A DNA stretch of 64,000 nucleotides, taken from NCBI RefSeq assembly GCF_002941025.1, contig NZ_PTJS01000001.1, forward strand, positions 496,001 to 560,000, in the 5' to 3' direction. The position numbers were made by a program, and so were the translations under genes. Below the pieces are notes generated by a model, which was not told the DNA's origin, did not search any database, and was given only the letters and a program-made list of their open reading frames with translations. The stretch's first letter is position 1; the number at the start of each line of letters is the position of its first letter. The DNA is from Streptomyces sp. QL37. Lineage in GTDB: Bacteria; Actinomycetota; Actinomycetes; Streptomycetales; Streptomycetaceae. Below are positions 3,280 through 27,323 of this stretch, piece after piece.

Positions 3280-3747
3280 ATGACGTTCCAGCACATCAAC
3301 CACAGCAGCGACAGCACGACCGACTTCCCCGGCCGCAGCGGCCCGGCCGCCACCACGGAGGCCGAGCCACGCGATGCGGGGCCGGTCCGCACGTCGTACG
3401 CCCCCGATCGCGACGGTGATCCCGACCCCGGCGAGATCGTCTGGACCTGGGTGCCGTTCGAGGAGAACGACGGGCGCGGCAAGGACCGGCCGGTTCTCGT
3501 CGTGGCCCGGGAGGAGCGGGGGACGCTTCTCGCCGTGCAGTTGTCCAGCAAGCAGCACGACGGGGACCACGAGTGGGTCTCCCTGGGAGCAGGGCCGTGG
3601 GACAGCTCGGGACGGGCCTCCTGGGTGGATCTGGACCGGGTCCTGCGGGTGCACGAGGACGGGATGCGGCGCGAGGCCTGTGAGCTGGACCGGGGAAGGT
3701 ACGACCTGGTGGTGGGGCGGCTGCGGGAGCGCTACGGCTGGAGCTGA
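3280..3747 (+). CDS. PemK/MazF-family protein without a visible antitoxin
   Basis: The C-terminal 110 residues of this 155-residue protein match the PemK/MazF fold: PGEIVWTWVPFEE, then KDRPVLVV, a core strand LLAVQLSSK, and WVDLDRVLRV. In the family this fold is a sequence-specific endoribonuclease. About 45 poorly conserved residues precede it. No small antitoxin gene lies next to it, so it may be a solitary domain protein rather than a working toxin-antitoxin pair. A TACGGT -10 element ends six bases before the ATG, which suggests a leaderless transcript. Its 3' end overlaps the convergent macrodomain gene by 16 bases. Confidence 0.75.
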   Translation: MTFQHINHSSDSTTDFPGRSGPAATTEAEPRDAGPVRTSYAPDRDGDPDPGEIVWTWVPFEENDGRGKDRPVLVVAREERGTLLAVQLSSKQHDGDHEWVSLGAGPWDSSGRASWVDLDRVLRVHEDGMRREACELDRGRYDLVVGRLRERYGWS

Positions 3748-4568
3748 CGGCCGAACGCGCGGGTGAAGGCCGCCCGGACGGCGGAGTCGGGGTCGCGGTC
3801 CGGGACGCCGAACACGATCTGCTCGAAGTGGCCGGCGAACCGCCCGCCGTCGGTGAGCAGGGCACGGAACGCCGCGGCCACCCCGGCCGGGTCGTTCATG
3901 AAGACGCCGCAGCCCCACGCCCCCAGGACCAGGCGTCGGTACCCGCGGACGGCGGCGACTTCGAGCACTCGTTCGGCACGACTCGCCAGCACCGCGGGGA
4001 TGCGAGGGACCTGGTCCGGTTCCCTGCTGCGGATCACTCCGGCGTTGGGCGCGGGCGAGGTGAGGAACCCGGCGGAGTACGGCGTGTCCAGCAGCCTTCC
4101 CCGGTCGTCACGGAAGACCGGTACGCCGGGTGAGTGAATGACCCGGTCGGTGTAGAAGGCGCTGCGTTCGGCGCGGTGGTGCGCGTAGAACTCAGGGGTC
4201 CGCAGCAGCGTGGCGTAGAGCGCGGAGCCCCGGCAGAGGGACTCCTCCTGGGCCTGCGCGCCGTTCAGATAGCCGCCGCCGGGGTTGCGGGCGGAGGCGT
4301 AGTTGAGCACCGCCACCTTGGCCGCCGCCTCGTCCGTCATCCGGCGTGCCGCCTGCAGGCTCGTCTCGGCGGTCACCTCGACGACCGGGCTGCGATCGGT
4401 GTCCAGGACGGCCACGTGGACCGGCTCGGGCCCGTAGAGCCTGGTGCCGGAGAGCGCGGCGGCCAGAGCACGCTCGATCGTCACCTCGCGCCCCTCGGGC
4501 GTGCGGTACCGACCCGCCAGGACGATGGACTCGGTCTCTCGCGCGATGCCGCGCAGTCGTGCGCTCAT
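3732..4568 (-). CDS. TIGR02452-family macrodomain-like protein (poly(ADP-ribose) glycohydrolase-like)
   Basis: The 278-residue product matches the microbial PARG-like/TIGR02452 family. The key stretch is at about residues 80-110: KVAVLNYASARNPGGGYLNG followed by AQEESLCR, where the GGG-x(6-8)-QEE pattern is the ADP-ribose-binding and catalytic signature. Later motifs LVLGAWGCGVFMNDP and the C-terminal VFGVPD fit the family. The predicted role is removal or binding of ADP-ribose; this is inferred from the family. The ATG at 4568 is chosen because the upstream extension to 4742 overlaps the egtA promoter and shows no homology. It is divergent from egtA by 147 bases. Confidence 0.85.
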   Translation of the reverse strand: MSARLRGIARETESIVLAGRYRTPEGREVTIERALAAALSGTRLYGPEPVHVAVLDTDRSPVVEVTAETSLQAARRMTDEAAAKVAVLNYASARNPGGGYLNGAQAQEESLCRGSALYATLLRTPEFYAHHRAERSAFYTDRVIHSPGVPVFRDDRGRLLDTPYSAGFLTSPAPNAGVIRSREPDQVPRIPAVLASRAERVLEVAAVRGYRRLVLGAWGCGVFMNDPAGVAAAFRALLTDGGRFAGHFEQIVFGVPDRDPDSAVRAAFTRAFGRQLQP

Positions 4569-4715
4569 GGGCGCGCCCCCGTGTGGTGCATACGGGGCAT
4601 GCTGGGTGCCGTGGCGGCATGGACGCAACCGGTTTTCCGCCCCAGAGGGGCACCCTTGTGCGAACTCCCGGTAAGGGTTTGGGTGGGAAGCAAGCACCCG
4701 AAGAGGAGGCCCAGC

Positions 4716-6014
4716 ATGCCCCCGGACACTCTCGGCCAGCACGGCCCGCCCGTCGGCGCGGCGCCGCTCGGCGAGGAAGAAGCGGAGGATCTACTCCGCG
4801 GCATATGTTTCAAGACGGGACCGCCCCGGACGGTCGGTGTGGAGCTGGAATGGCTCATTCACGACCGTGAACATCCCGAGGTCGCCGTCTCCCACGACCG
4901 CCTCCGCGCCGCGGCCGACGCCGTGCGCGCGACCCCGCTGGACGCTGCCCTGACCTTCGAACCCGGCGGTCAGCTGGAGCTCAGCTCCCAGCCGGCGGGC
5001 TCCCTGATGGCCTGCGTCGACGCCACGGCCGCCGATCTGGTCTCCGTGCGCGACACTCTCGGCCGAGCCGGGCTTACCTTGGCCGGCATGGGCGTGGACC
5101 CGTGGCACCCACCGCGCCGTCTGCTTCAGGAGCCGCGGTACGACGCCATGGAAACCGCGCTCGACCGGTCGGGGTCCGCGGGCCGCGCCATGATGTGCAC
5201 CTCCGCTTCCGTCCAGGTCTGCCTGGACGCCGGTGAGGAGGAGCCGGGCCCACTGGGCTACGGGCGGCGCTGGCAGCTCGGGAACCTGCTGGGGGCTGTG
5301 CTGGTCGCCGCCTTCGCCAATTCGCCGTTCCGGCAGGGCAGGCGCACCGGCTGGCAGTCGACCAGGCAGGCGCTGTGGGCCGGCCTCGATCCGGCCAGGA
5401 CGCTCGCGCCGCAGAGCCGGCTCGCGCCCAGGGAGGCCTGGGCCGAACATGTGCTCGCCACACCGGTGATGTGTGTCCGGAGCGACGACGGACCCTGGGC
5501 CGTGCCGCACGGACTGACGTTCCGGGACTGGATCCGCGGCGGTGGGCCGAGGCCGCCGGTGCGGGCCGATCTCGACTATCACCTCACCACGCTGTTCCCG
5601 CCGGTGCGCCCGCGCGGGCACCTGGAACTGCGCATGATCGACGCCCAGTCCGGCACCGACGGCTGGCTCGTACCCCTTGCCGTCACCACCGCTCTCTTCG
5701 ACGACCCGGAGGCAGCAGAGACCGTGTACCGCACCGTGAAACCTCTGGCCGAGACCGCGGGCCTGCCGGCCGCCCCCCGCAATCCGCTCTGGACCGCCGC
5801 CGCTCGCGAGGGGCTCGGGGATCCGGAGCTGGCGGTGGCGGCCGCGGCCTGCTTCGCGGCGGCGCTGGAGGCGCTGCCCAGGATCGGGGCGAGTGACCAC
5901 GTCCTCGGGACGGTCGCCGCCTTCCACGACCGCTATGTGGCCCGGGGCCGATGTCCGGCCGACGATTTTCCCGACCCGGCGCAGGCGCCGTACGGAAAGG
6001 GCTTGGTCCGATGA
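4716..6014 (+). CDS. egtA: Ergothioneine biosynthesis glutamate-cysteine ligase EgtA
   Basis: EgtA makes gamma-glutamylcysteine, the sulfur donor for ergothioneine in actinobacteria. The 432-residue protein has the GCS2-like signature TVGVELEWLI near residue 35 and later LDYHLTTLFPPVRPRGHLELRMIDAQ, typical of the EgtA branch of the glutamate-cysteine ligase family. The start is ATG 4716, preceded by a strong AAGAGGAGG ribosome binding site at 4701-4709; the open frame extends to 4134 but that part is the antisense of the macrodomain gene. The stop overlaps the egtB start (ATGA). It is the first gene of an egtABCD operon. Confidence 0.95.
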   Translation: MPPDTLGQHGPPVGAAPLGEEEAEDLLRGICFKTGPPRTVGVELEWLIHDREHPEVAVSHDRLRAAADAVRATPLDAALTFEPGGQLELSSQPAGSLMACVDATAADLVSVRDTLGRAGLTLAGMGVDPWHPPRRLLQEPRYDAMETALDRSGSAGRAMMCTSASVQVCLDAGEEEPGPLGYGRRWQLGNLLGAVLVAAFANSPFRQGRRTGWQSTRQALWAGLDPARTLAPQSRLAPREAWAEHVLATPVMCVRSDDGPWAVPHGLTFRDWIRGGGPRPPVRADLDYHLTTLFPPVRPRGHLELRMIDAQSGTDGWLVPLAVTTALFDDPEAAETVYRTVKPLAETAGLPAAPRNPLWTAAAREGLGDPELAVAAAACFAAALEALPRIGASDHVLGTVAAFHDRYVARGRCPADDFPDPAQAPYGKGLVR

Positions 6015-10820: not shown

Positions 10821-12074
10821 TCAGCCGGTGATCAGCTTGGACGTGATGCTCTCGGACGCCTTCCTCGCCTCTTCCGCCGGGTCGCCGCCCTCCAGCACGG
10901 CCGTCATGTACGGCTTGATGGGGTTGTCCGCCTCGACGGCCGGCCAGTAGGGCGAATTGGGGGTGGCGCGGCCCTGAGTAGCGCCCTCCGCCATCGCGGA
11001 GGTTCCTTCCTGGCCTTCGACGACCCTCGCCAGGCCGGGCTTGTTGGGCACGTAACTCATGGCCCGGGCGAGCTCCGTCTGCCACTGCTCCCCCGCGAGG
11101 GCCTTGACGACCTCGATGCCCTCGCTCCGCTGGTCCGCGCCTTCGGGCACGATCAGGTCGGAGCCTCCGGTGAACACCGCGCCCGGCTTCTTCGCGCTCT
11201 TGCCGGGGATGGGGAAGTAGCCCAGCTTCCCCTTGAGTTCGGGGTTCCGCTGCTCGATGAGTGCGGCACTTCCGGGCACGGAGATGATCTGCGCGACGTC
11301 ACCCTCGGCGAACACATCGGTCTCCGGAGGCGTCTGTTCGTCGGCGTCCTTGGGTCCGTCGCCGAGCGCCTGAAGCGTCTTGTAGAAGTCCATGCCCCGC
11401 AGAGCGGCGGGTGAGTCGAGTGTGCCCTCCCAGTCGCCACCGCGGTCGTCCGCCAGTTCGCCGCCCTCGTCCCAGATGAAGCCGGCGAGTACGTACCAGT
11501 TCTGTCCGGCGAGGTAGATGCCCTGCCGGCCGCCCGTGTTCAGCCGCTCGCTGACGTCCACCCATTCCTCGCGGGTCCTGGGGAGTTCGGTGATACCCGC
11601 CTGCGCGAAGAGGTCCTTGTTGTAGATCACGACGCGGTTGGCCGCGTACCAGGGGATTCCGTACTGTCCGCCGTTGACCTTGCCCGGCTCCGCGAGTCCC
11701 GGCAGCCAGTCCTCGCCGCCGAGGTCGCGCATCGATTCCAGGGTGAGATCGCGCAGTTCGCCGCTCTCCGCGTACTGCGCGACCTGGGTGTTGCCGACCT
11801 CGATGACGTCCGGCGCGTCGTCGCCCTCGAGTGCCTTCAGAACCTTGGGGCCGATGCCGCCCCACTCCTGGAGGATGAACTCCAGTTCGACCGAGGGGTG
11901 CTCCGCCTCGTACGACTCCTTGAAGCTGTCCAGGAAGCTCTGGGAGGCACTGCCCTTCATCAGCCACACCGTCACGGTGCTGCTGTCGGTGCCCGTACCG
12001 GGAAGGTAGCCGCAGCCGCTCAGGGCGACGGAGGAAACGAGCGCGACGGCTCCGGCCAGTATGCGGATCTTCAC
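10821..12074 (-). CDS. DasA/NgcE-like sugar ABC transporter substrate-binding lipoprotein
   Basis: The 417-residue protein has a lipoprotein signal with lipobox LSGC at about residue 17, then the family 1 solute-binding pattern (TVTVWLMKGSASQSFLDSF, DAPDVIEVGNTQVAQY, YGIPWYAANRVVIYNK). These blocks resemble DasA-type chitobiose-binding proteins of Streptomyces. No permease or ATPase gene is adjacent, so it would have to use distant membrane components. The start is GTG 12074, with an AGAAGGTGA ribosome binding site just upstream; the frame is open to 12191 but the extension lacks homology. A DasR-like box lies about 92-105 bases upstream. Ligand assignment is inference. Confidence 0.85.
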   Translation of the reverse strand: MKIRILAGAVALVSSVALSGCGYLPGTGTDSSTVTVWLMKGSASQSFLDSFKESYEAEHPSVELEFILQEWGGIGPKVLKALEGDDAPDVIEVGNTQVAQYAESGELRDLTLESMRDLGGEDWLPGLAEPGKVNGGQYGIPWYAANRVVIYNKDLFAQAGITELPRTREEWVDVSERLNTGGRQGIYLAGQNWYVLAGFIWDEGGELADDRGGDWEGTLDSPAALRGMDFYKTLQALGDGPKDADEQTPPETDVFAEGDVAQIISVPGSAALIEQRNPELKGKLGYFPIPGKSAKKPGAVFTGGSDLIVPEGADQRSEGIEVVKALAGEQWQTELARAMSYVPNKPGLARVVEGQEGTSAMAEGATQGRATPNSPYWPAVEADNPIKPYMTAVLEGGDPAEEARKASESITSKLITG

Positions 12075-12165
12075 GGGGGTCACCTTCTGCGAAACGGCAC
12101 GACGAATGACAGGACCCGGGTGGGGGGACTGCGGGCGGCGCTCGCACGGGTGTATGGACCGGAGT

Positions 12166-12179
12166 TTGGTATGGACCAA
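12166..12179. promoter_or_regulatory. Putative DasR-responsive (dre-like) element
   Basis: TTGGTATGGACCAA is an inverted repeat with 5-bp arms (TTGGT/ACCAA). On the minus strand the core TGGTCCATACCA matches the DasR consensus TGGTCTAGACCA at 10 of 12 positions. It lies between the divergent binding-protein and dodecin genes. The half-site TATGGACC recurs at 12153-12160. Regulation by DasR is inference from the similarity and from the DasA-like gene it precedes. Confidence 0.5.
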
Positions 12180-12276
12180 TGGGCAGGTCAAGCCCCGTTC
12201 CGTCGCGGATCGCGGGCGGATACCTCGCGCTCCGACCCGGAGTGAGGCACCGTGGAACCACGAAAGGAGACATTAG

Positions 12277-12492
12277 ATGTCTAATCACACCTACCGGGTC
12301 ACCGAGATCGTAGGAACCTCCGAGGAGGGTCTCGACGCGGCGATCCGGAACGGCGTCGCAAGAGCCTCCGAAACGTTGCACAATCTCGACTGGTTCGAGA
12401 TGACGCAGGTCCGCGGCCATATCGAGGACGGCCGCATCGCCCACTACCAGGTGGGGCTCAAAGTCGGCTTCCGCCTCGACGAGAAGGCCTGA
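12277..12492 (+). CDS. Dodecin family protein
   Basis: The 71-residue product matches dodecins, small proteins that form hollow dodecamers binding flavins or CoA. It has the expected layout: beta strand YRVTEIVGTS, a helix EGLDAAIRNGVARAS, then LDWFEMTQVRGHIEDG, where the Trp is the flavin-stacking residue, and a final strand YQVGLKVGFRLD. It has a clear AAAGGAG ribosome binding site before ATG 12277. It is divergent from the sugar-binding lipoprotein and convergent with the HAD gene. Confidence 0.92.
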   Translation: MSNHTYRVTEIVGTSEEGLDAAIRNGVARASETLHNLDWFEMTQVRGHIEDGRIAHYQVGLKVGFRLDEKA

Positions 12493-13093: not shown

Positions 13094-13420
13094 TCAGCGC
13101 CCCAGGGCCTTGCGCAGCTGCTCCTTGGTCATCGAGGAACGGCCCTCGACGTTGCGCTTCTTGGCCTCCTCGTACAGCTGGTCCTTCGTCGGCCCCTGCG
13201 CCCCGCTGTGGGAGCGCTGCCCACCGCGCTCGGAGGCGGATTTGGGGTCCCGGAGGGACGCCCGGCTCGCGGTCCTGGACTCCCCCGAGCGGGCGCGCTC
13301 CTTGTTGACCGTGCGCGCCGCGATCTCCTTGGCACGCTTCGTGGACGTGCCGCGCTCCTCGGCACCTTCCTTGATGTGCTCGTACTGACGTTCGCGCTTG
13401 GAGCTGGATCCTGCGGGCAT
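13094..13420 (-). CDS. Small basic protein with Rho N-terminal/SAP-like C terminus
   Basis: The 108-residue product is highly charged. The N-terminal half (SSKRERQYEHIKEGAEERG and KRAKEIAARTVNKERA) is a KGG/plasmid-stabilisation-like region common in actinobacteria. The C terminus PTKDQLYEEAKKRNVEGRS plus MTKEQLRKALGR fits a Rho termination factor N-terminal-like helical motif that binds nucleic acid. The start is ATG 13420 rather than the upstream opening at 13468 because conserved sequence begins there and AGGAGAGG precedes it. Its function is unknown; DNA or RNA binding is an inference. Confidence 0.75.
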   Translation of the reverse strand: MPAGSSSKRERQYEHIKEGAEERGTSTKRAKEIAARTVNKERARSGESRTASRASLRDPKSASERGGQRSHSGAQGPTKDQLYEEAKKRNVEGRSSMTKEQLRKALGR

Positions 13421-13626
13421 GGCACCTCTCCTCACTCTCGGACGACGGTGGTGACCCGCCGCACCCACTACCCCACACCGTGGCCCCCATGCCTGCCGGG
13501 CGAGAGGTCCGAACGGGGCACGGGGCCGGCCCGCGCGCGTGGCGGAGCGTGGCCGCTCGAGATGCAGGCGGGGCCGGGCGCTGCTTCGCTGGTGGGGTCC
13601 GCTCCCCCACAGATCCAGGAGTGATC

Positions 13627-13818
13627 ATGAGCGTTGCAGGTGAGTCCGGCGGCCGTGCCAAGCAGCTGCGTGCCAAGGCGCAGGAACTGAACGAGGCCGC
13701 GGAACGTGCCACCGACCCGGAGCAGCGGCAGCGGCTCCAGGACAAGGCCCGCCGCCTGCGGGAGCAGAGCGAGCAGGAGAGCTCGATGACGGACCGCGGC
13801 ATGGACCCGATGGTGTAG
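13627..13818 (+). CDS. Small coiled-coil protein (DUF6381-like)
   Basis: This 63-residue protein starts at ATG 13627. It is mostly one charged helix (RAKQLRAKAQELNEAAERAT, then PEQRQRLQDKARRLREQSEQ) and ends in a short acidic, Met-rich tail. It looks like the small Streptomyces family annotated as DUF6381; I recall this from similar sequences and have not checked it. No function is known. It is divergent from the basic protein at 13094-13420, separated by about 206 bases that hold the two promoters and nothing else I can recognise. Confidence 0.65.
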   Translation: MSVAGESGGRAKQLRAKAQELNEAAERATDPEQRQRLQDKARRLREQSEQESSMTDRGMDPMV

Positions 13819-13917
13819 GGGCCGGCACCCCGCGCTGCCGGTGGTCCGTCCGCGTGCGGGAGGATCACCGGCAGAAGCATGCCCACCCCACTGATCCCCC
13901 ACGGAGCCGCACCGCCG

Positions 13918-16344
13918 ATGTCCACCTCCCATGATCCGTACGTCCGGGTACGCGGCGCGCGTGAACACAACCTCCGCGACGTGGACGTCGACATCCCGCG
14001 CGACACCCTCGCGGTCTTCACCGGCGTCTCGGGCTCGGGCAAGTCCTCCCTGGCGTTCGGGACGATCTACGCGGAGGCCCAGCGCCGGTACTTCGAGTCC
14101 GTCGCCCCGTACGCCCGCCGGCTGATCCACCAGGTCGGGGCACCGGACGTGGGTGAGATCACCGGTCTGCCGCCGGCGGTGTCCCTGGAGCAGCGCCGTT
14201 CCGCACCCGGGTCTCGTTCCTCGGTGGGTACGGTCACCACGCTCTCCAACTCCCTGCGCATGCTCTTCTCACGTGCCGGTGACTATCCGCCCGGCGCCGA
14301 ACGGCTCGACTCGGACTCCTTCTCCCCCAACACGGCGGCCGGGGCGTGCCCCGAGTGCCACGGCCTGGGGCGCGTCCACCGCACCACGGAGGAACTGCTC
14401 GTCCCGGACCCTTCGTTGTCGATCCGCGACGGAGCGATCGCGGCGTGGCCCGGGGCCTGGCAGGGCAAGAATCTCCGTGATGTGCTGGACGCCCTCGGCT
14501 ACGACATCGGGCGCCCGTGGCGGGAGCTGGACCCGGCGGACCGCGAATGGATCCTGTTCACCGACGAGCAGCCGGTGGTGACGGTCCATCCGGTGCGCGA
14601 CGCGGGCCGCATCCAGCGCCCGTACCAGGGTACGTACATGAGCGCGCGCCGCTACGTGATGCACACGTTCGCGGATTCCAGGAGCCGGACGCTGCGGACT
14701 AAGGCGGAGCGCTTCCTGACGAGTGCGCCGTGCCCGGTGTGCGGGGGCAGCCGGCTGCGGCCGGAGGCCATGGCGGTCACGTTCGCCGGCCGTACGATCG
14801 CCGATCTCGTCGCACTGCCCCTGAACTCCCTCACCGAGGTACTGCTGGAGGCGGGCGGCGGGAGTGACACGGCGCGGGTGCTGACGGCCGATCTGCTGGC
14901 CAGGATCGGACCGGTCACCGAGCTGGGTCTCGGCTACCTCAGCCTCGACCGTACGGCCCCGACCCTGTCGTCGGGCGAACTGCAGCGGCTCAGGCTGGCC
15001 ACCCAGCTGCGCTCGGGACTCTTCGGCGTCGTCTATGTGCTGGACGAGCCGTCGGCGGGCCTCCATCCGGCCGACACGGAGGCGCTGCTCGGCGTGCTCG
15101 GCAGGCTCAGGCAGGCGGGGAACTCGGTGTTCGTGGTGGAACACCAGATGGATGTGGTGCGGCAGGCCGACTGGCTGGTGGACGTGGGGCCTCTGGCCGG
15201 CGAGCACGGAGGCCGGGTCCTGCACAGCGGTCCTCCGGCGGACCTCGCCGGGGTGGCCGCGTCCGCGACCCGGCGGTTCCTCTTCGACGAGGACCCGGCG
15301 CCGGAGCGCGAGCCGCGCACGCCCTCGGGGTGGATCACGCTGCGCGGGGTGGACCTGCACAACGTGCGCGGCGTCGACGCAGCGTTCCCGCTGGGTGTGC
15401 TGACGGCGGTCACCGGGGTGTCGGGGTCGGGCAAGTCGACCCTCGTCGGCCAGGTCCTGGCCGGGGCGCTGGCCGACCGGCGGCCGGCGGAGGCCCCGGA
15501 GGATCCTGCCGCACCGGTGGCGCGGGGCTGCGCGTCGGCGGAGGGCCTGGACGCGGTGGACCGGCTCGTGCAGGTGGACCAGCGGCCCATCGGCCGTACG
15601 CCGCGGTCCAACCTGGCCACGTACACAGGGCTGTTCGACGTCGTACGGAGGCTGTTCGCGGAGACGGAGACCGCGCGGGACCGGAAGTACCGGGCTGGCC
15701 GGTTCTCGTTCAATGTGGCGGGCGGGCGGTGCGAGACCTGTCAGGGCGAGGGGTTCGTCTCGGTCGAGCTGCTCTTCCTGCCCAGTACGTACGCTCCCTG
15801 CCCGGACTGTCACGGCGCGCGCTACAACCCGCAGACGCTGGAGGTGACTCTGCGCGGGCTCACGATCGCCGAGGTGCTGGACCTGACGGTGGAGGCGGCG
15901 GCGGAGTTCCTCGCCGGGACTCCGGCGGCCGAGCGCAGCCTGCGGGCGCTGCTCGACGTGGGGCTCGGCTATCTGCGTCTGGGCCAGCCGGCGACGGAGC
16001 TGTCGGGCGGTGAGGCTCAGCGGATCAAGCTCGCCACGGAGCTCCAACGTGCCCGTCGGGGGCACACCCTCTATCTGCTGGACGAGCCGACGACAGGGCT
16101 GCATCCGGCCGACGTCGAGGTGCTGATGCGGCAGTTGCACGGGCTCGTGGACGCGGGGAACTCCGTGGTGGTCGTGGAGCACGACATGGCGGTGGTGGCC
16201 GGCGCGGACCGGGTGATCGACCTGGGGCCCGGCGGCGGGGACCGGGGCGGCCGGATCGTCGCCACCGGCACACCGCGTGAGGTGGCCCGGGCGGCGGGGA
16301 GCCGTACGGCCGCTTACCTGGCCAGGGCGCTGCGGACGGGCTGA
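13918..16344 (+). CDS. Short UvrA-like ABC ATPase (UvrA2/drug-resistance type)
   Basis: The 808-residue protein has two ABC ATPase halves with Walker A motifs GVSGSGKSSLAFG (about residue 35) and GVSGSGKSTLVG (about 505), ABC signatures LSSGELQRL and LSGGEAQRIKLA, and Walker B VLDEPSAGLHP and LLDEPTTGLHP. Zinc-finger pairs CPECHGLG/CPVCGGS and CETCQGEG/CPDCHGAR are present. It is 130-150 residues shorter than housekeeping UvrA, fitting the class II UvrA paralogues thought to act in DNA damage or DNA-intercalator tolerance. The start could also be ATG 13879; 13918 is closer to the conserved region. It is convergent with sdhB. Confidence 0.88.
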   Translation: MSTSHDPYVRVRGAREHNLRDVDVDIPRDTLAVFTGVSGSGKSSLAFGTIYAEAQRRYFESVAPYARRLIHQVGAPDVGEITGLPPAVSLEQRRSAPGSRSSVGTVTTLSNSLRMLFSRAGDYPPGAERLDSDSFSPNTAAGACPECHGLGRVHRTTEELLVPDPSLSIRDGAIAAWPGAWQGKNLRDVLDALGYDIGRPWRELDPADREWILFTDEQPVVTVHPVRDAGRIQRPYQGTYMSARRYVMHTFADSRSRTLRTKAERFLTSAPCPVCGGSRLRPEAMAVTFAGRTIADLVALPLNSLTEVLLEAGGGSDTARVLTADLLARIGPVTELGLGYLSLDRTAPTLSSGELQRLRLATQLRSGLFGVVYVLDEPSAGLHPADTEALLGVLGRLRQAGNSVFVVEHQMDVVRQADWLVDVGPLAGEHGGRVLHSGPPADLAGVAASATRRFLFDEDPAPEREPRTPSGWITLRGVDLHNVRGVDAAFPLGVLTAVTGVSGSGKSTLVGQVLAGALADRRPAEAPEDPAAPVARGCASAEGLDAVDRLVQVDQRPIGRTPRSNLATYTGLFDVVRRLFAETETARDRKYRAGRFSFNVAGGRCETCQGEGFVSVELLFLPSTYAPCPDCHGARYNPQTLEVTLRGLTIAEVLDLTVEAAAEFLAGTPAAERSLRALLDVGLGYLRLGQPATELSGGEAQRIKLATELQRARRGHTLYLLDEPTTGLHPADVEVLMRQLHGLVDAGNSVVVVEHDMAVVAGADRVIDLGPGGGDRGGRIVATGTPREVARAAGSRTAAYLARALRTG

Positions 16345-23003: not shown

Positions 23004-23818
23004 GCCTTGCGTCCAACCCCGGCGAAGCCCGAGAAGGCGAACGGGTCTTCGTGCGCGAGCGTCTCCGGGGACTCGGGACGCCACTCGGGCATGGAGACGA
23101 GCCCGGGCTCGACCATCTCGTACCCCTCGAAGAACCGGCTGATCTCCGTGCGCGAACGCATGATCAGCGGATTGCGGATGGTGCGGTAGACGCCGACGGT
23201 CCCGCCCGCCTCCTCCTGGCTCAGCGGGATCCCCTCGTACGCGGCGTGGGTCAGGACCAGCAGGCTGCCCGGGGCCAGCGCGTCGCGCAGTTCGGCGACC
23301 GCCGCGTACGGATCGTCGGAGTCCTCGATGAAGTGGAGCACCGCCACGAGGAGCAGCGCCACCGGCTTGTCCAGGTCGAGGAGGCCGTTGATCTGCGGGT
23401 CCGCCAGGATCTCCCGGGGTTTACGCAGATCCGCGGCGGCGATCACGGCCCGCTCGTTGCCCTCGAGCACCGCCTGGCTGTGTGCGACCGCGACCGAGTC
23501 GTGGTCGACATAGGCGATCCGGGCCTCGGGATCGGCCGCCTGGGCCACTTCATGAACATTGCCGAAAGTCGGTATACCGGACCCTATGTCCAGGAACTGG
23601 TTGACGCCTGAAGCAGTGGCAAAGTGCACGGCCCGTCGCATAAAGGCACGATTGGCCTGCATGACCTTGGGCAGGCCCGGCATGAACTCCATGGCCTTCC
23701 GGGCCGCTTCCCTGTCCACCTCGAAATTGTGCGAACCGCCCAGATAGAAGTCGTACATGCGAGACACGCTCGGCACCGAGATGTCAATGCCTTGCGGTGC
23801 CCAGGCGGGACGCTCCAT
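23000..23818 (-). CDS. SAM-dependent methyltransferase (Methyltransf_19/DUF574 family)
   Basis: The 272-residue protein matches the large actinobacterial family with the N-terminal signature PSVSRMYDFYLGGSHNFEVD, the SAM-binding motif FLDIGSGIPTFGNVHEVA (about residue 75), and VAYVDHD-like motif II. Its substrate is unknown; the family is greatly expanded in Streptomyces. The start is ATG 23818 with GGAG eight bases upstream; the longer TTG form at 23833 is less likely. It is coupled by a GTGA overlap to the c-di-GMP gene, which is worth noting because the pairing could be functional. Confidence 0.9.
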   Translation of the reverse strand: MERPAWAPQGIDISVPSVSRMYDFYLGGSHNFEVDREAARKAMEFMPGLPKVMQANRAFMRRAVHFATASGVNQFLDIGSGIPTFGNVHEVAQAADPEARIAYVDHDSVAVAHSQAVLEGNERAVIAAADLRKPREILADPQINGLLDLDKPVALLLVAVLHFIEDSDDPYAAVAELRDALAPGSLLVLTHAAYEGIPLSQEEAGGTVGVYRTIRNPLIMRSRTEISRFFEGYEMVEPGLVSMPEWRPESPETLAHEDPFAFSGFAGVGRKA

Positions 23819-23851
23819 CGATGTCTCCAACAAGTCGCCACGGCGATCCGG

Positions 23852-23876
23852 CCATGTTCATGGTCAGTGTTGACCA
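23852..23876. promoter_or_regulatory. Overlapping palindromes upstream of the methyltransferase-rmdA operon
   Basis: CCATGTTCATGG (23852-23863) and TGGTCAGTGTTGACCA (23861-23876, perfect 6-bp arms) overlap by three bases, 34-58 bases upstream of the operon start codon. Their position near the expected promoter suggests one or two operators. I cannot name the regulator. Nothing else was recognised between the operon start at 23818 and the lipoprotein stop at 24023. Confidence 0.45.
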
Positions 23877-24022
23877 GAGGCTACTGATCGACCGCCAGGA
23901 GAGCGAGTGGAAACGGAAATTAGAGATCCGTTATTGGTCACACACCGCAGGCATGTGCGGCGGCCCGTCGCTGCGTGTGCGCATTCGGCGACGGACCGGC
24001 ACCACGGAGGGTCTTCTCGGCC

Positions 24023-24979
24023 TTACTTGGAGGCTCCGACCAGTTTCGCGTCGGGCGAGACCGCGTACCATGTGCCCCCGACTCCTTGGCCGTTGGTGTC
24101 TCCCGGCCGCACATCGCCGGAGAAGGTGTAGAGGGGCCAGCAGTCGAGCGACTGCTGCTTGACGCCGTCCGGACGGTCGAAGGTGGCGAATCCCTTCGTG
24201 GTGACGCCTTCGACGTCATTCTTCTCCACGGGACCGACGACCGGCCACTTCTTCAGGCACTCGCCCGTGCACGCGGACTTCATCGGCCACGCCGAGTCCT
24301 TCTTGAAGCGGTAAACCGTCATACCCCGTTTGTCCACGACGATGTTCCCGAGTTCCGGATCCTCGCGGACCGAAAGGCCGGCGAGGCCGGCCTGGGCACC
24401 GGTGGCCCCGTCGGTGTTCACCGCCGCTTTCTTTCCCTCCGGAGCGGCGGCGAACCAGGTCCCGCCGACGCCCTGTCCCTTTGCGTCACCGGGCCGGGTG
24501 TCCTGGGCATAGCGGTACATGGGCCACCCCGCCACGGTCAGCTGTCCGGTCCCGTCGGCCCTGGTCACCTCGCCGATCAGCGACGCCTCAACACCCGCGG
24601 CCGCTTCGGCGTTCCGGGCCGGCACCGCGGGCCACGCCTCGGCGCAGTCGCTCTCGCAATTCGACCGGGGCGGTTCGGCGGTGTCCTTGTCGAAGCGGTA
24701 GAGCGTGAAGCCCTCGCTGTCGGTCAGCACCTTGCCCAGCTTCTTGCTGTCCCACACCGCGAGTTGCCCGGCCTCCTTCGCCGTCCCACCCGTCGCCGCC
24801 CCGGAACCGTATCCGCCGTCCGAGCCGTAGCCGCCGTCCGCCGGCTGCTGTGCGGGCGCGGCGTTCCCCACCGCCTGGCCGTTCGGCGACGCGGTGTCCT
24901 TCTCCTGACCGCACGCCGTCGTCAGCGCCAGGAGGGCCGCCGCCGTCACCGCGAGCGAGGCGTTCCGCCAGGTATCCAT
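24023..24979 (-). CDS. SCO0930-family lipoprotein with repeated Cys-containing domains
   Basis: The 318-residue protein has a lipoprotein signal (lipobox LTTAC at about residue 23), a Gly/Ser/Tyr linker (GYGSDGGYGSG), and two repeats of the secreted-repeat/DUF305-like type. Each repeat has a strand pair TLYRFDKDT or TVYRFKKDS followed by cysteines and a PVV/PAV core, and a second half ending GQGVGGTWFAAAPEGK or GQGVGGTWYAVSP. The start is ATG 24979. Family members are annotated only as lipoproteins and have no known function; membrane-surface location is predicted. The first 113 bases of the gene and its whole upstream region are duplicated in inverted orientation downstream. Confidence 0.85.
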   Translation of the reverse strand: MDTWRNASLAVTAAALLALTTACGQEKDTASPNGQAVGNAAPAQQPADGGYGSDGGYGSGAATGGTAKEAGQLAVWDSKKLGKVLTDSEGFTLYRFDKDTAEPPRSNCESDCAEAWPAVPARNAEAAAGVEASLIGEVTRADGTGQLTVAGWPMYRYAQDTRPGDAKGQGVGGTWFAAAPEGKKAAVNTDGATGAQAGLAGLSVREDPELGNIVVDKRGMTVYRFKKDSAWPMKSACTGECLKKWPVVGPVEKNDVEGVTTKGFATFDRPDGVKQQSLDCWPLYTFSGDVRPGDTNGQGVGGTWYAVSPDAKLVGASK

Positions 24980-25924
24980 GTCGACTCCCGTCGTCCTTCT
25001 GCCGTCCGGGACGCGAGTCCGCGTCTTCCGTGGCCCTTGGTACGGGCGACTGGTGCTCCCGCGTTCAACGGAAGCCCGGACGAGTTCCGGCGGGCGTAAA
25101 CGCGAATCGCCGAATGTCCCCTCCATCAGGCGAATCGGCTCCGACCTCCGCGTGTTCGGCGGCTGAGGGGAACATGCTCCCCGGCGTGTACGGATCACGC
25201 ATATGGCGGCTGACAGCCGCCACCCTGCTCCTGGTGCTCGCCGTCCCGCTGCCGGCGGCCGGTGACGACTGCGCCGTCGCCTCCATCGGGCAGGGGGACG
25301 GCAGCTCGTCCGTCGCCGTGGCGGGCGAGGGACGGTGCGGGGCGGTCATCGCCGAGCCCGAACCCGAGCCCGAGCCCGAGCACGATCGCGTACACCACGC
25401 CGATCATCATCGTCATGTACTCGATGACGTCGGGCGTCTCGGACGGATCGTCGTCCTCGGCGAGGCGCCGGTTGCTCAGGACGGCGATGGTCAGCACGAC
25501 GGCGCAGTCGTCACCGGCCGCCGGCAGCGGGACGGCGAGCACCAGGAGCAGGGTGGCGGCTGTCAGCCGCCATATGCGTGATCCGTACACGCCGGGGAGC
25601 ATGTTCCCCTCAGCCGCCGAACACGCGGAGGTCGGAGCCGATTCGCCTGATGGAGGGGACATTCGGCGATTCGCGTTTACGCCCGCCGGAACTCGTCCGG
25701 GCTTCCGTTGAACGCGGGAGCACCAGTCGCCCGTACCAAGGGCCACGGAAGACGCGGACTCGCGTCCCGGACGGCAGAAGGACGACGGGAGTCGACATGG
25801 ATACCTGGCGGAACGCCTCGCTCGCGGTGACGGCGGCGGCCCTCCTGGCGCTGACGACGGCGTGCGGTCAGGAGAAGGACACCGCGTCGCCGAACGGCCA
25901 GGCGGTGGGGAACGCCGCGCCCGC
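24852..25924. repeat. Perfect 428-bp inverted repeat with 217-bp spacer
   Basis: Bases 24852-25279 and 25497-25924 are reverse complements of equal length with no mismatch that I could find; the proteins read through both arms are identical. The arm contains the start of the SCO0930-type lipoprotein gene, the divergent intergenic region and the start of the proline-rich secreted protein gene. The spacer is 25280-25496. Its second part, 25376-25506 (overlapping the arm by 10 bases), is an exact reverse-complement copy of 26361-26491 from the DUF4239 gene. The left arm is the native copy because it continues into the complete lipoprotein gene. Confidence 0.93.
25195..25602 (-). pseudogene. Chimeric minus-strand frame: secreted-protein signal fused in frame to DUF4239 fragment
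   Basis: The inverted right arm carries a second copy of the secreted-protein start (ATG 25602, same ribosome binding site). Its frame reads the signal peptide, then crosses at 25506/25497 in frame into the duplicated DUF4239 segment (LTIAVLSNRRLAEDDDP, then the membrane stretch MTMMIGVVYAIVLG), then runs through the antisense of the Glu-Pro repeat (GLGLGFGLG) to a stop at 25195. It would make a 135-residue, two-membrane-segment chimera. Whether it is expressed is unknown; it is a by-product of the rearrangement. Confidence 0.6.
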
Positions 25925-25976
25925 CGTTTTCGCCGTGGCGGGCGAGGGACGGTGCGGGGCGCACGGTGGCAGGTGA
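25797..25976 (+). pseudogene. Truncated second copy of the SCO0930-type lipoprotein gene
   Basis: ATG 25797 opens the inverted duplicate of the lipoprotein gene with its own upstream region. The first 42-43 residues (signal peptide, lipobox Cys and start of the mature part) match the full gene. At the end of the arm the frame crosses into a copy of the secreted-protein C-terminal region (VFAVA) and then GEGRCG, and stops at 25976 after 59 residues. It could encode a tiny secreted lipopeptide but is best seen as a duplication remnant. Confidence 0.65.
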
Positions 25977-26153
25977 GGGCGAGGGTTCCGGTTCGGGCGG
26001 CGCGGCCCAGGAATCGGTACGCCTGGAGGCGCAGGCACTGCACGAGGTGAGCAGTGCCTGCGCCTCCAGGCGTACCGATTCCTGGGCCGCGCCGCCCGAA
26101 CCGGAACCCGAACCGGAACCCTCGCCCTCACCTGCCACCGTGCGCCCCGCACC
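25951..26153. repeat. Second inverted repeat (91/103-bp arms, 9-nt loop)
   Basis: 25951-26041 pairs with 26051-26153 around the loop 26042-26050. The arms are the same except for one 12-bp unit of the Glu-Pro repeat (TTCCGGTTCGGG) that is missing from the left arm. The inner 37 base pairs come from the DUF4239 gene (26529-26565) and the outer part from the secreted-protein 3' region. A 203-nt near-perfect hairpin of this kind is expected to be unstable on replication. Confidence 0.9.
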
Positions 26154-26318
26154 TCCTCCCGCGCCCGTAGCGCTGCCCACCTACAGGAAGGCGACCCGCA
26201 AGACGCCCCGGACAGGGCCGTCGCTGGTGTCGCTCACCCTTCTCATCACCGCGCCCGCCGTTTTCGCCGTGGCCGTGCTGCGGCCCCGCTCGTCCCGCTG
26301 AACCGAAGAAGGGAACCC

Positions 26319-27086
26319 ATGTCGGAATGGCTTGTTCTGACCATTGCGATGGCCTCGGCATGCGCCGTCGTGCTGACCATCGCCGTCCTGAGCAACCGGC
26401 GCCTCGCCGAGGACGACGATCCGTCCGAGACGCCCGACGTCATCGAGTACATGACGATGATGATCGGCGTGGTGTACGCGATCGTGCTCGGCCTTGCCAT
26501 CGCGGGCGTCTGGGAGGGCCGCAGCGCCGCCCAGGAATCGGTACGCCTGGAGGCGCAGGCACTGCACGAGGTGAGCGCCCGGGCGGCGGTCTACCCGGTC
26601 GAGGTCCGCGACCGCATCCGGGCCGACGTCGACGCGTATGTGGCACATGTCGTCGGCGCCGAATGGAAGTCGATGACGGACCACGCGAGTCTCACCGAGG
26701 AGGGCACCAGACTTCTCGACCGGGTGCGGGCCGACGTGACGGAGTACGAGCCGCGGACGGACCACGAAGGGCAGGCGTACCAGCCGCTGGTGGACCAGGT
26801 GGCCGCCGTCGACGACGCACGGGGGGCCCGGGGGCAGAACGCGGGCGCGACCATGCCGGGAGTCGTCTGGTTCGGTCTGATCACCGGGGCCGTGGTCACG
26901 GTCGGGTTGATCTTCACGCTCCAGATCCGCAGAACCTTCCGTGAATTGCTGCTGGCGGGCCTCTTCAGCGTTCTGATCGCCTTCCTGCTCTTCCTCATCT
27001 GGGACTTCGACGCCCCCTTCGGGCGGGGGATCTCGGCGACCACGGCCCCGTTCGTCGATCTGTTCCCGCACGCCACGGGCGGATAG
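26319..27086 (+). CDS. DUF4239 (bestrophin-like) membrane protein
   Basis: The 255-residue protein has an N-terminal transmembrane segment (VLTIAMASACAVVLTIAVL), a second at about residues 45-63 (MTMMIGVVYAIVLGLAIAG), a soluble middle domain with the family pattern SAAQESVRLEAQALHEV, and two further segments near the C terminus. This is the DUF4239 layout; a channel role has been suggested only by distant likeness to bestrophins. The ATG 26319 follows GAAGAAGGGA. Two parts of this gene (26361-26491 and 26529-26576) have been copied into the rearranged region upstream, but the gene itself is intact. Confidence 0.85.
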   Translation: MSEWLVLTIAMASACAVVLTIAVLSNRRLAEDDDPSETPDVIEYMTMMIGVVYAIVLGLAIAGVWEGRSAAQESVRLEAQALHEVSARAAVYPVEVRDRIRADVDAYVAHVVGAEWKSMTDHASLTEEGTRLLDRVRADVTEYEPRTDHEGQAYQPLVDQVAAVDDARGARGQNAGATMPGVVWFGLITGAVVTVGLIFTLQIRRTFRELLLAGLFSVLIAFLLFLIWDFDAPFGRGISATTAPFVDLFPHATGG

Positions 27087-27128
27087 GAGCGCACGCCTCG
27101 CGACCCTCACCCCTCGGCCGGCGAGCAG

Positions 27129-27180
27129 GCCGGTCCCCCGGGCCGGTCCCCCGGGCCGGTCCCCCGGGCCGGTCCGCCGG
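27129..27180. repeat. Four tandem copies of a 13-bp GC-rich unit
   Basis: The unit GCCGGTCCCCCGG starts at 27129, 27142, 27155 and 27168; the fourth copy has one change. It lies in the 237-base gap between the DUF4239 gene and the next secreted protein. Each unit can pair with its neighbour, so the block may work as a terminator. Nothing else was recognised in the gap. Confidence 0.7.
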
Positions 27181-27323
27181 CCGGGGGACAAGGCTGCCCC
27201 ATTCGCCTGACACCGATCGCGGGTGATATGTGGCACTCCTACCGTTTCGGTCATCGAGGTGCATTTCTCATGCCTCGCGGAAATCCGTTCCGCGGCTGCT
27301 CCTCGGGACCCGGAGGATTCACC

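Follow-up and report, generated by a model that had tools for sequence, protein, structure and literature searches.

MMBIR and FoSTeS are single events in which serial template switches at microhomology join inverted and direct pieces taken from nearby. Strand-switched copies of one locus are also found in chimeric sequencing reads, where they have an in vitro origin without biological rearrangement: in the portions of two reports consulted here, inverted-repeat chimeric reads are traced to library preparation under the PDSM model, with chimeras joined at natural inverted repeats (PMC10908179), and fold-back artefacts in long reads are placed by their authors in library preparation as well (PMC12870357). 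Errors in Illumina assemblies have been described for S. leeuwenhoekii, a high-GC Streptomyces, and are blamed, in the consulted part of that report, on short reads and on two repetitive biosynthetic gene clusters (PMC4487206). A survey of inverted repeats in 118,019 genomes cautions, in the text drawn on here, that misassemblies could introduce errors into the repeats detected (PMC13155455).

The locus described here lies in a stretch of 64,000 nucleotides (the window) of Streptomyces sp. QL37 (genome label G000), whose assembly is apparently near-complete, with a main contig of 8.77 Mb and a completeness of 100. It resembles MMBIR/FoSTeS products in its serial switches, microhomology and local inverted and direct pieces; unlike those single events, it belongs to clusters that recur in one assembly at intervals of about 70 kb and carry errors in G/C runs. 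With the chimeric reads it shares strand-switched copies of the same locus, but whereas those reads, as the excerpts describe them, mimic variants against a reference (PMC10908179, PMC12870357), the chimeras in QL37 apparently became the assembly consensus. Like the S. leeuwenhoekii drafts, QL37 has assembly errors in a high-GC Streptomyces; unlike the errors treated in the consulted part of that report (PMC4487206), those in QL37 affect short G/C-rich tracts. We conclude, with a probability of about 0.94, that the block is a sequencing and assembly artefact, composed of fold-back chimeras accepted across a coverage gap, and not a real biological feature.

The initial annotation assigned the patchwork to 24852-26153, an interval that also takes in intact native sequence; the block proper is 708 bp long (about 25379-26086). 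To its left lie a native lipoprotein gene on the reverse strand (24023-24979; Pfam PF03640, Lipoprotein_15, E 2.9e-60) and the native first part of a small secreted-protein gene on the forward strand (25174-25378), with a signal-like start and an EPEPEP end, delimited by the colinearity and the intact proteins of relatives. To its right follow, both on the forward strand, the native last part of the small gene, from EPEPEP to RPRSSR and the stop codon (26087-26301), and an intact DUF4239-type gene (26319-27086; PF14023, E 5.8e-58), a family whose current Pfam name is Bestrophin-like. A tandem 13-bp repeat, GGCCGGTCCCCCG, stands after the bestrophin-like gene at 27128-27179.

The inverted and direct matches listed in the initial annotation are all exact. 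Piece A (25376-25506, reverse strand) is the reverse complement of 26361-26491 in the bestrophin-like gene (131 bp), and piece B (25497-25924, reverse strand), which overlaps A by 10 bp, is that of 24852-25279 (428 bp), a donor composed of the start of the lipoprotein gene, intergenic DNA and the start of the small gene. Two short direct copies follow on the forward strand: piece C (25915-25939) from 26249-26273 (25 bp; 10-bp overlap with B) and piece D (25930-25961) from 25313-25344 (32 bp; 10-bp overlap with C). Piece E (25951-26004, reverse strand; 11-bp overlap with D) is the reverse complement of the right native flank, running leftwards from 26153; its positions 25951-25997 match 26107-26153 over 47 bp, and the letters place its end at 26004 and make it one 12-bp repeat unit shorter than the flank. 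Piece F (26005-26052, forward strand) is a direct copy of 26529-26576 in the bestrophin-like gene (48 bp), and piece G (26051-26086, reverse strand) folds F back into the right native flank: 26051-26087 is the reverse complement of 26529-26565 (37 bp), and 25983-26041 and 26051-26109 form perfect mutual inverted copies with arms of 59 bp and a spacer of 9 nt. The overlap at this fold-back is 2 bp; the four joints in the middle of the block have overlaps of 10, 10, 10 and 11 bp. Apart from the repeat unit lost in E, the pieces are free of base errors, and exact copies of such length cannot have arisen by chance. An exact inverted-repeat scan of the window found no other cluster of local inverted copies.

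The small secreted-protein gene is split by the block, as the initial annotation had stated; the intact proteins of relatives bear this out. Its upstream open frame runs out in foreign sequence, and in the downstream frame part of the bestrophin-like gene is joined to the native end of the small gene. In relatives, the corresponding protein begins with a signal-like segment, continues with EP repeats and a long proline run, and closes with a hydrophobic tail whose last residues are RPRSSR; its gene adjoins a bestrophin-like gene. When proteins were searched for a close homologue that is intact, only three came up: a 79-aa entry from Streptomyces sp. 7G that its source labels partial and that ends shortly after the poly-proline stretch, a longer relative aligned over 24% of the query at 76% identity, and a third that, from its sequence, looks like an antisense frame of a bestrophin-like gene.

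Three relatives are colinear with QL37 on both sides and have an intact poly-proline gene between. G029 aligns with 24024-25378 and 26087-27133, G076, a two-contig genome, with 23801-25381 and 26089-27300, and G096 with 23801-25376 and 26095-27299, so that the breakpoints agree within 8 bp. Between the colinear blocks these genomes carry a (CCN)n tract of 99, 92 and 121 bp, respectively, which codes in frame for a long proline run; the ends of the encoded protein match the two halves in the window. Thus, the block occupies the place of the poly-proline tract, and the true gene of QL37 very probably holds such a C-rich/G-rich (CCN)n tract for its proline run. The G029 and G096 stretches contain, over the 2 kb compared, the letters of loci L043 (Streptomyces sp. 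HB132) and L044 ([Kitasatospora] papulosa), and each pair is therefore a single record and not two independent ones.

The same place is difficult in other assemblies. Among the best 80 of 561 relatives' loci, 22 have a contig that ends 159-454 bp upstream of the DUF4239 gene, as compared with two (L110 and L114) that end within 450 bp downstream, and two more loci have upstream N gaps (148 N in L089, 100 N in L094). A (CCN)8 run is present in 52 of these 80 loci. Where the full upstream sequence is available (58 loci), it is present in 46 and absent in 12, so the tract is common and not universal; L087, L089 and L094 are three of the 12 without it, and the tract is present in all three relatives that define the breakpoints. 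L087, from Streptomyces sp. ms191, shows a different patchwork in the same gene (3498-3850), in which inverted arms of 41 bp are followed by a 235-bp copy of a source 4.3 kb downstream. Its fold-back was found by the exact-match scan and missed by the blast scan at 90% identity, probably through that filter.

The initial annotation had offered two readings, a single MMBIR-like event that would be a rare and fresh record of the mechanism, and an amplification or assembly chimera that would give rise to false genes. Support for the chimera is strong; the MMBIR-like event lacks it, as became apparent when the rest of the assembly was sampled. We took 54 stretches of 20 kb (1.08 Mb) from the QL37 genome at round positions, chosen blind to content, and scanned them for exact inverted repeats of at least 40 bp within 4 kb; contigs C2-C5, the 2-kb stretch L131 and L150, itself a part of the window, were left out of the cluster count. 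As controls, 40 stretches (0.80 Mb) of three other Streptomyces were scanned alike (20 from G005, nine from one contig of G029 and 11 from G013). The QL37 stretches hold 15 clusters (about one per 70 kb), ten with several arm pairs and five single fold-backs, with arms of up to 789 bp, whereas the controls yielded three matches, each of them a lone perfect palindrome 40-60 bp long. In a blast search for local inverted matches of at least 80 bp, with self-palindromes included in the counts, the QL37 stretches gave 24 at 85% identity or more and six below, as against none and six in the controls. Extrapolated to the 8.77-Mb main contig, 15 clusters per 1.08 Mb correspond to about 120. With clusters recurring at this density, the claims that the block is one event and that it is rare both fail.

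The 15 clusters fall in 12 of the 54 stretches, at L133:6764-8215, L138:19324-20000, L143:18562-19262, L153:5610-7021, L161:11451-12779, L163:11689-12034 and 13318-14075, L170:4334-4670, L173:9474-10263 and 11529-12465, L174:3568-3990 and 4253-4936, L175:13870-14569, L179:18802-19969 and L186:1-2476. They have a plan in common, in which the left flank is followed by inverted copies of one or both flanks and then by the right flank, with frequent hairpin turns around short loops. Where new pieces meet, they are separated by a small gap or share up to 13 bp; the longer overlaps in the joint list come from copies of copies overlapping. Contig C2 (L125, 8943 bp) is packed with nested inverted repeats and may be another artefact.

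The clusters compared sit mostly on tracts rich in G/C runs. For the window and nine more clusters that have a G029 ortholog, the G029 tract was compared with 2000 random stretches of equal length from one G029 contig, and its G/C-run strength lay in the top 3% of this background at eight of the ten sites. The fraction of background stretches that are as strong or stronger is 0.0005 for the window, 0.0105 and 0.0025 for L173, 0 and 0.003 for L163, 0.013 for L153, 0.028 for L175 and 0.0075 for L170; the tracts of L161 (0.27) and L147 (0.39) are unremarkable. At the first L163 site and at L161 the flanking alignments overlap in G029 with nothing missing, and it was this overlap that was tested; some bases of padding were added at both ends of the first L163 tract and of the L147 tract. 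Four clusters (the two in L174, and those in L179 and L186) were left out of this comparison. A search of four genomes found no colinear ortholog for L145 or L146, and a search of G076 by position found one flank of L145 and did not find L153. Strong DNA hairpins were considered as a common cause and rejected: predicted folding is extreme at one of six sites, the first of L163, where 2% of the background is as stable, and the window tract folds very weakly. G/C-run strength fits the sites better than predicted hairpin folding does.

What look like read errors accompany the clusters. The 1.08 Mb sampled contain 20 G/C runs of at least 8, and 13 of these fall inside a cluster or at most 100 bp away from one, although the clusters cover 14.2 of the 1,080 kb; the 0.80 Mb of controls contain four; the window itself has no run of 8 or more. 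At L146:3210-4478, a locus that looks like an ABC-transporter type, inverted copies lie between ATPase-like and permease-like frames, and one copy is degraded to nearly only G+C. At L145 both extra copies have a C run in place of a short stretch.

Could the block nevertheless record a single, recent MMBIR/FoSTeS-like event, in which a fork stalled at the G-rich tract, switched templates serially at microhomology and finally snapped back? The path can be drawn as such a series, with joints of 2-11 bp homology and donors within about 1.7 kb; the tract at the break is, in G029, a strong G/C-run tract of the G-quadruplex type, and the fold-back at 26051 would restore orientation. Microhomology and serial local switches are, however, equally expected of an in vitro chimera, and an isolated, rare event in its genome is not what we see: 15 more clusters occur in 1.08 Mb of the same assembly (the 0.80 Mb of controls gave only three hairpins, all short and simple), errors in G/C runs concentrate in the clusters, and other assemblies break at the same tract. 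We therefore regard a single event as very improbable. The number of clusters and their link to G/C-rich tracts would be explained by a real, genome-wide burst of fold-back template switching at G-rich or G-quadruplex-forming tracts, following the loss of a safeguard such as a replication or G4-resolving function; if true, this strain would carry over a hundred fresh fold-back rearrangements. Such a burst, however, needs about 120 events in one lineage, recent enough for the copies to be exact; moreover, the degraded, nearly G/C-only copies resemble read errors, ms191 has an independent patchwork at the same gene, and the contigs of many relatives end there. We give this scenario as little credence as the single event, even though stalling at G-rich sites could also provoke real template switching.

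Recurrence, errors in G/C runs and contig ends elsewhere together point to an artefact. Strand-switched copies of the immediate flanks are joined at short homology, the pattern recurs at unrelated loci of this assembly and not in the assemblies scanned alike, and it is placed on hard-to-sequence tracts (eight of ten tracts extreme and two not, and contig ends in 22 of 80 loci). Against an artefact speak the pieces in the window, which are free of base errors but for the lost repeat unit, the lack of G/C runs of 8 or more in the window, the ordinary tracts of L161 and L147, and the loci of relatives in which the (CCN)8 run is absent. We propose that true reads across the (CCN)n tract were missing or unusable, probably through read dropout, and that molecules or reads entering the tract from either side would fold back, or anneal to a nearby complementary stretch via short homology. 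The products would be chimeras of the flanking sequence, which presumably arose in the library or in base-calling, beyond software alone. True reads normally outnumber chimeras; where they fail, chimeras could become the consensus, because no true read outvotes them, and the gap would then be closed with false sequence from both flanks. A variant of the artefact reading, which shares its verdict, is purely computational: a gap filler or graph assembler would have joined real, non-chimeric reads by short overlaps. The window's middle joints, at 10, 10, 10 and 11 bp, resemble the product of a minimum-overlap rule, for which a SPAdes setting is a possible source, and all donors are local. At other clusters, however, the joints vary between small gaps and overlaps of 13 bp, so that no fixed overlap rule applies across the clusters, and a strict assembler minimum-overlap rule is rejected as a full account; furthermore, the short-loop hairpin turns resemble physical fold-back. 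A computational origin without chimeric reads thus seems possible to us, and on balance doubtful.

An 80-bp query over the A/B joint matched end to end in G000 only, among the matches listed, best first, for 392 genomes, and partially in 189 of the 392; within the same best-first matches, the full joint was not seen in any of the 391 other genomes, one per species. A 26-base pattern over the joint occurs in nine of 275 loci, all of them G000 stretches round the window site. A literature search, mostly short of full text, found no report of such a pattern in a Streptomyces assembly.

A Streptomyces assembly that looks near-complete can hide false inverted duplications at unreadable tracts, and these create false genes and mimic the scars of replication repair. 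Such artefacts are easily flagged by scanning for exact inverted copies of at least 40 bp within 4 kb, and a screen of this kind should precede any work on template switching, inverted repeats or small genes in high-GC genomes. The block described here is thus useful as a quality warning, and not as a record of DNA repair in this strain.
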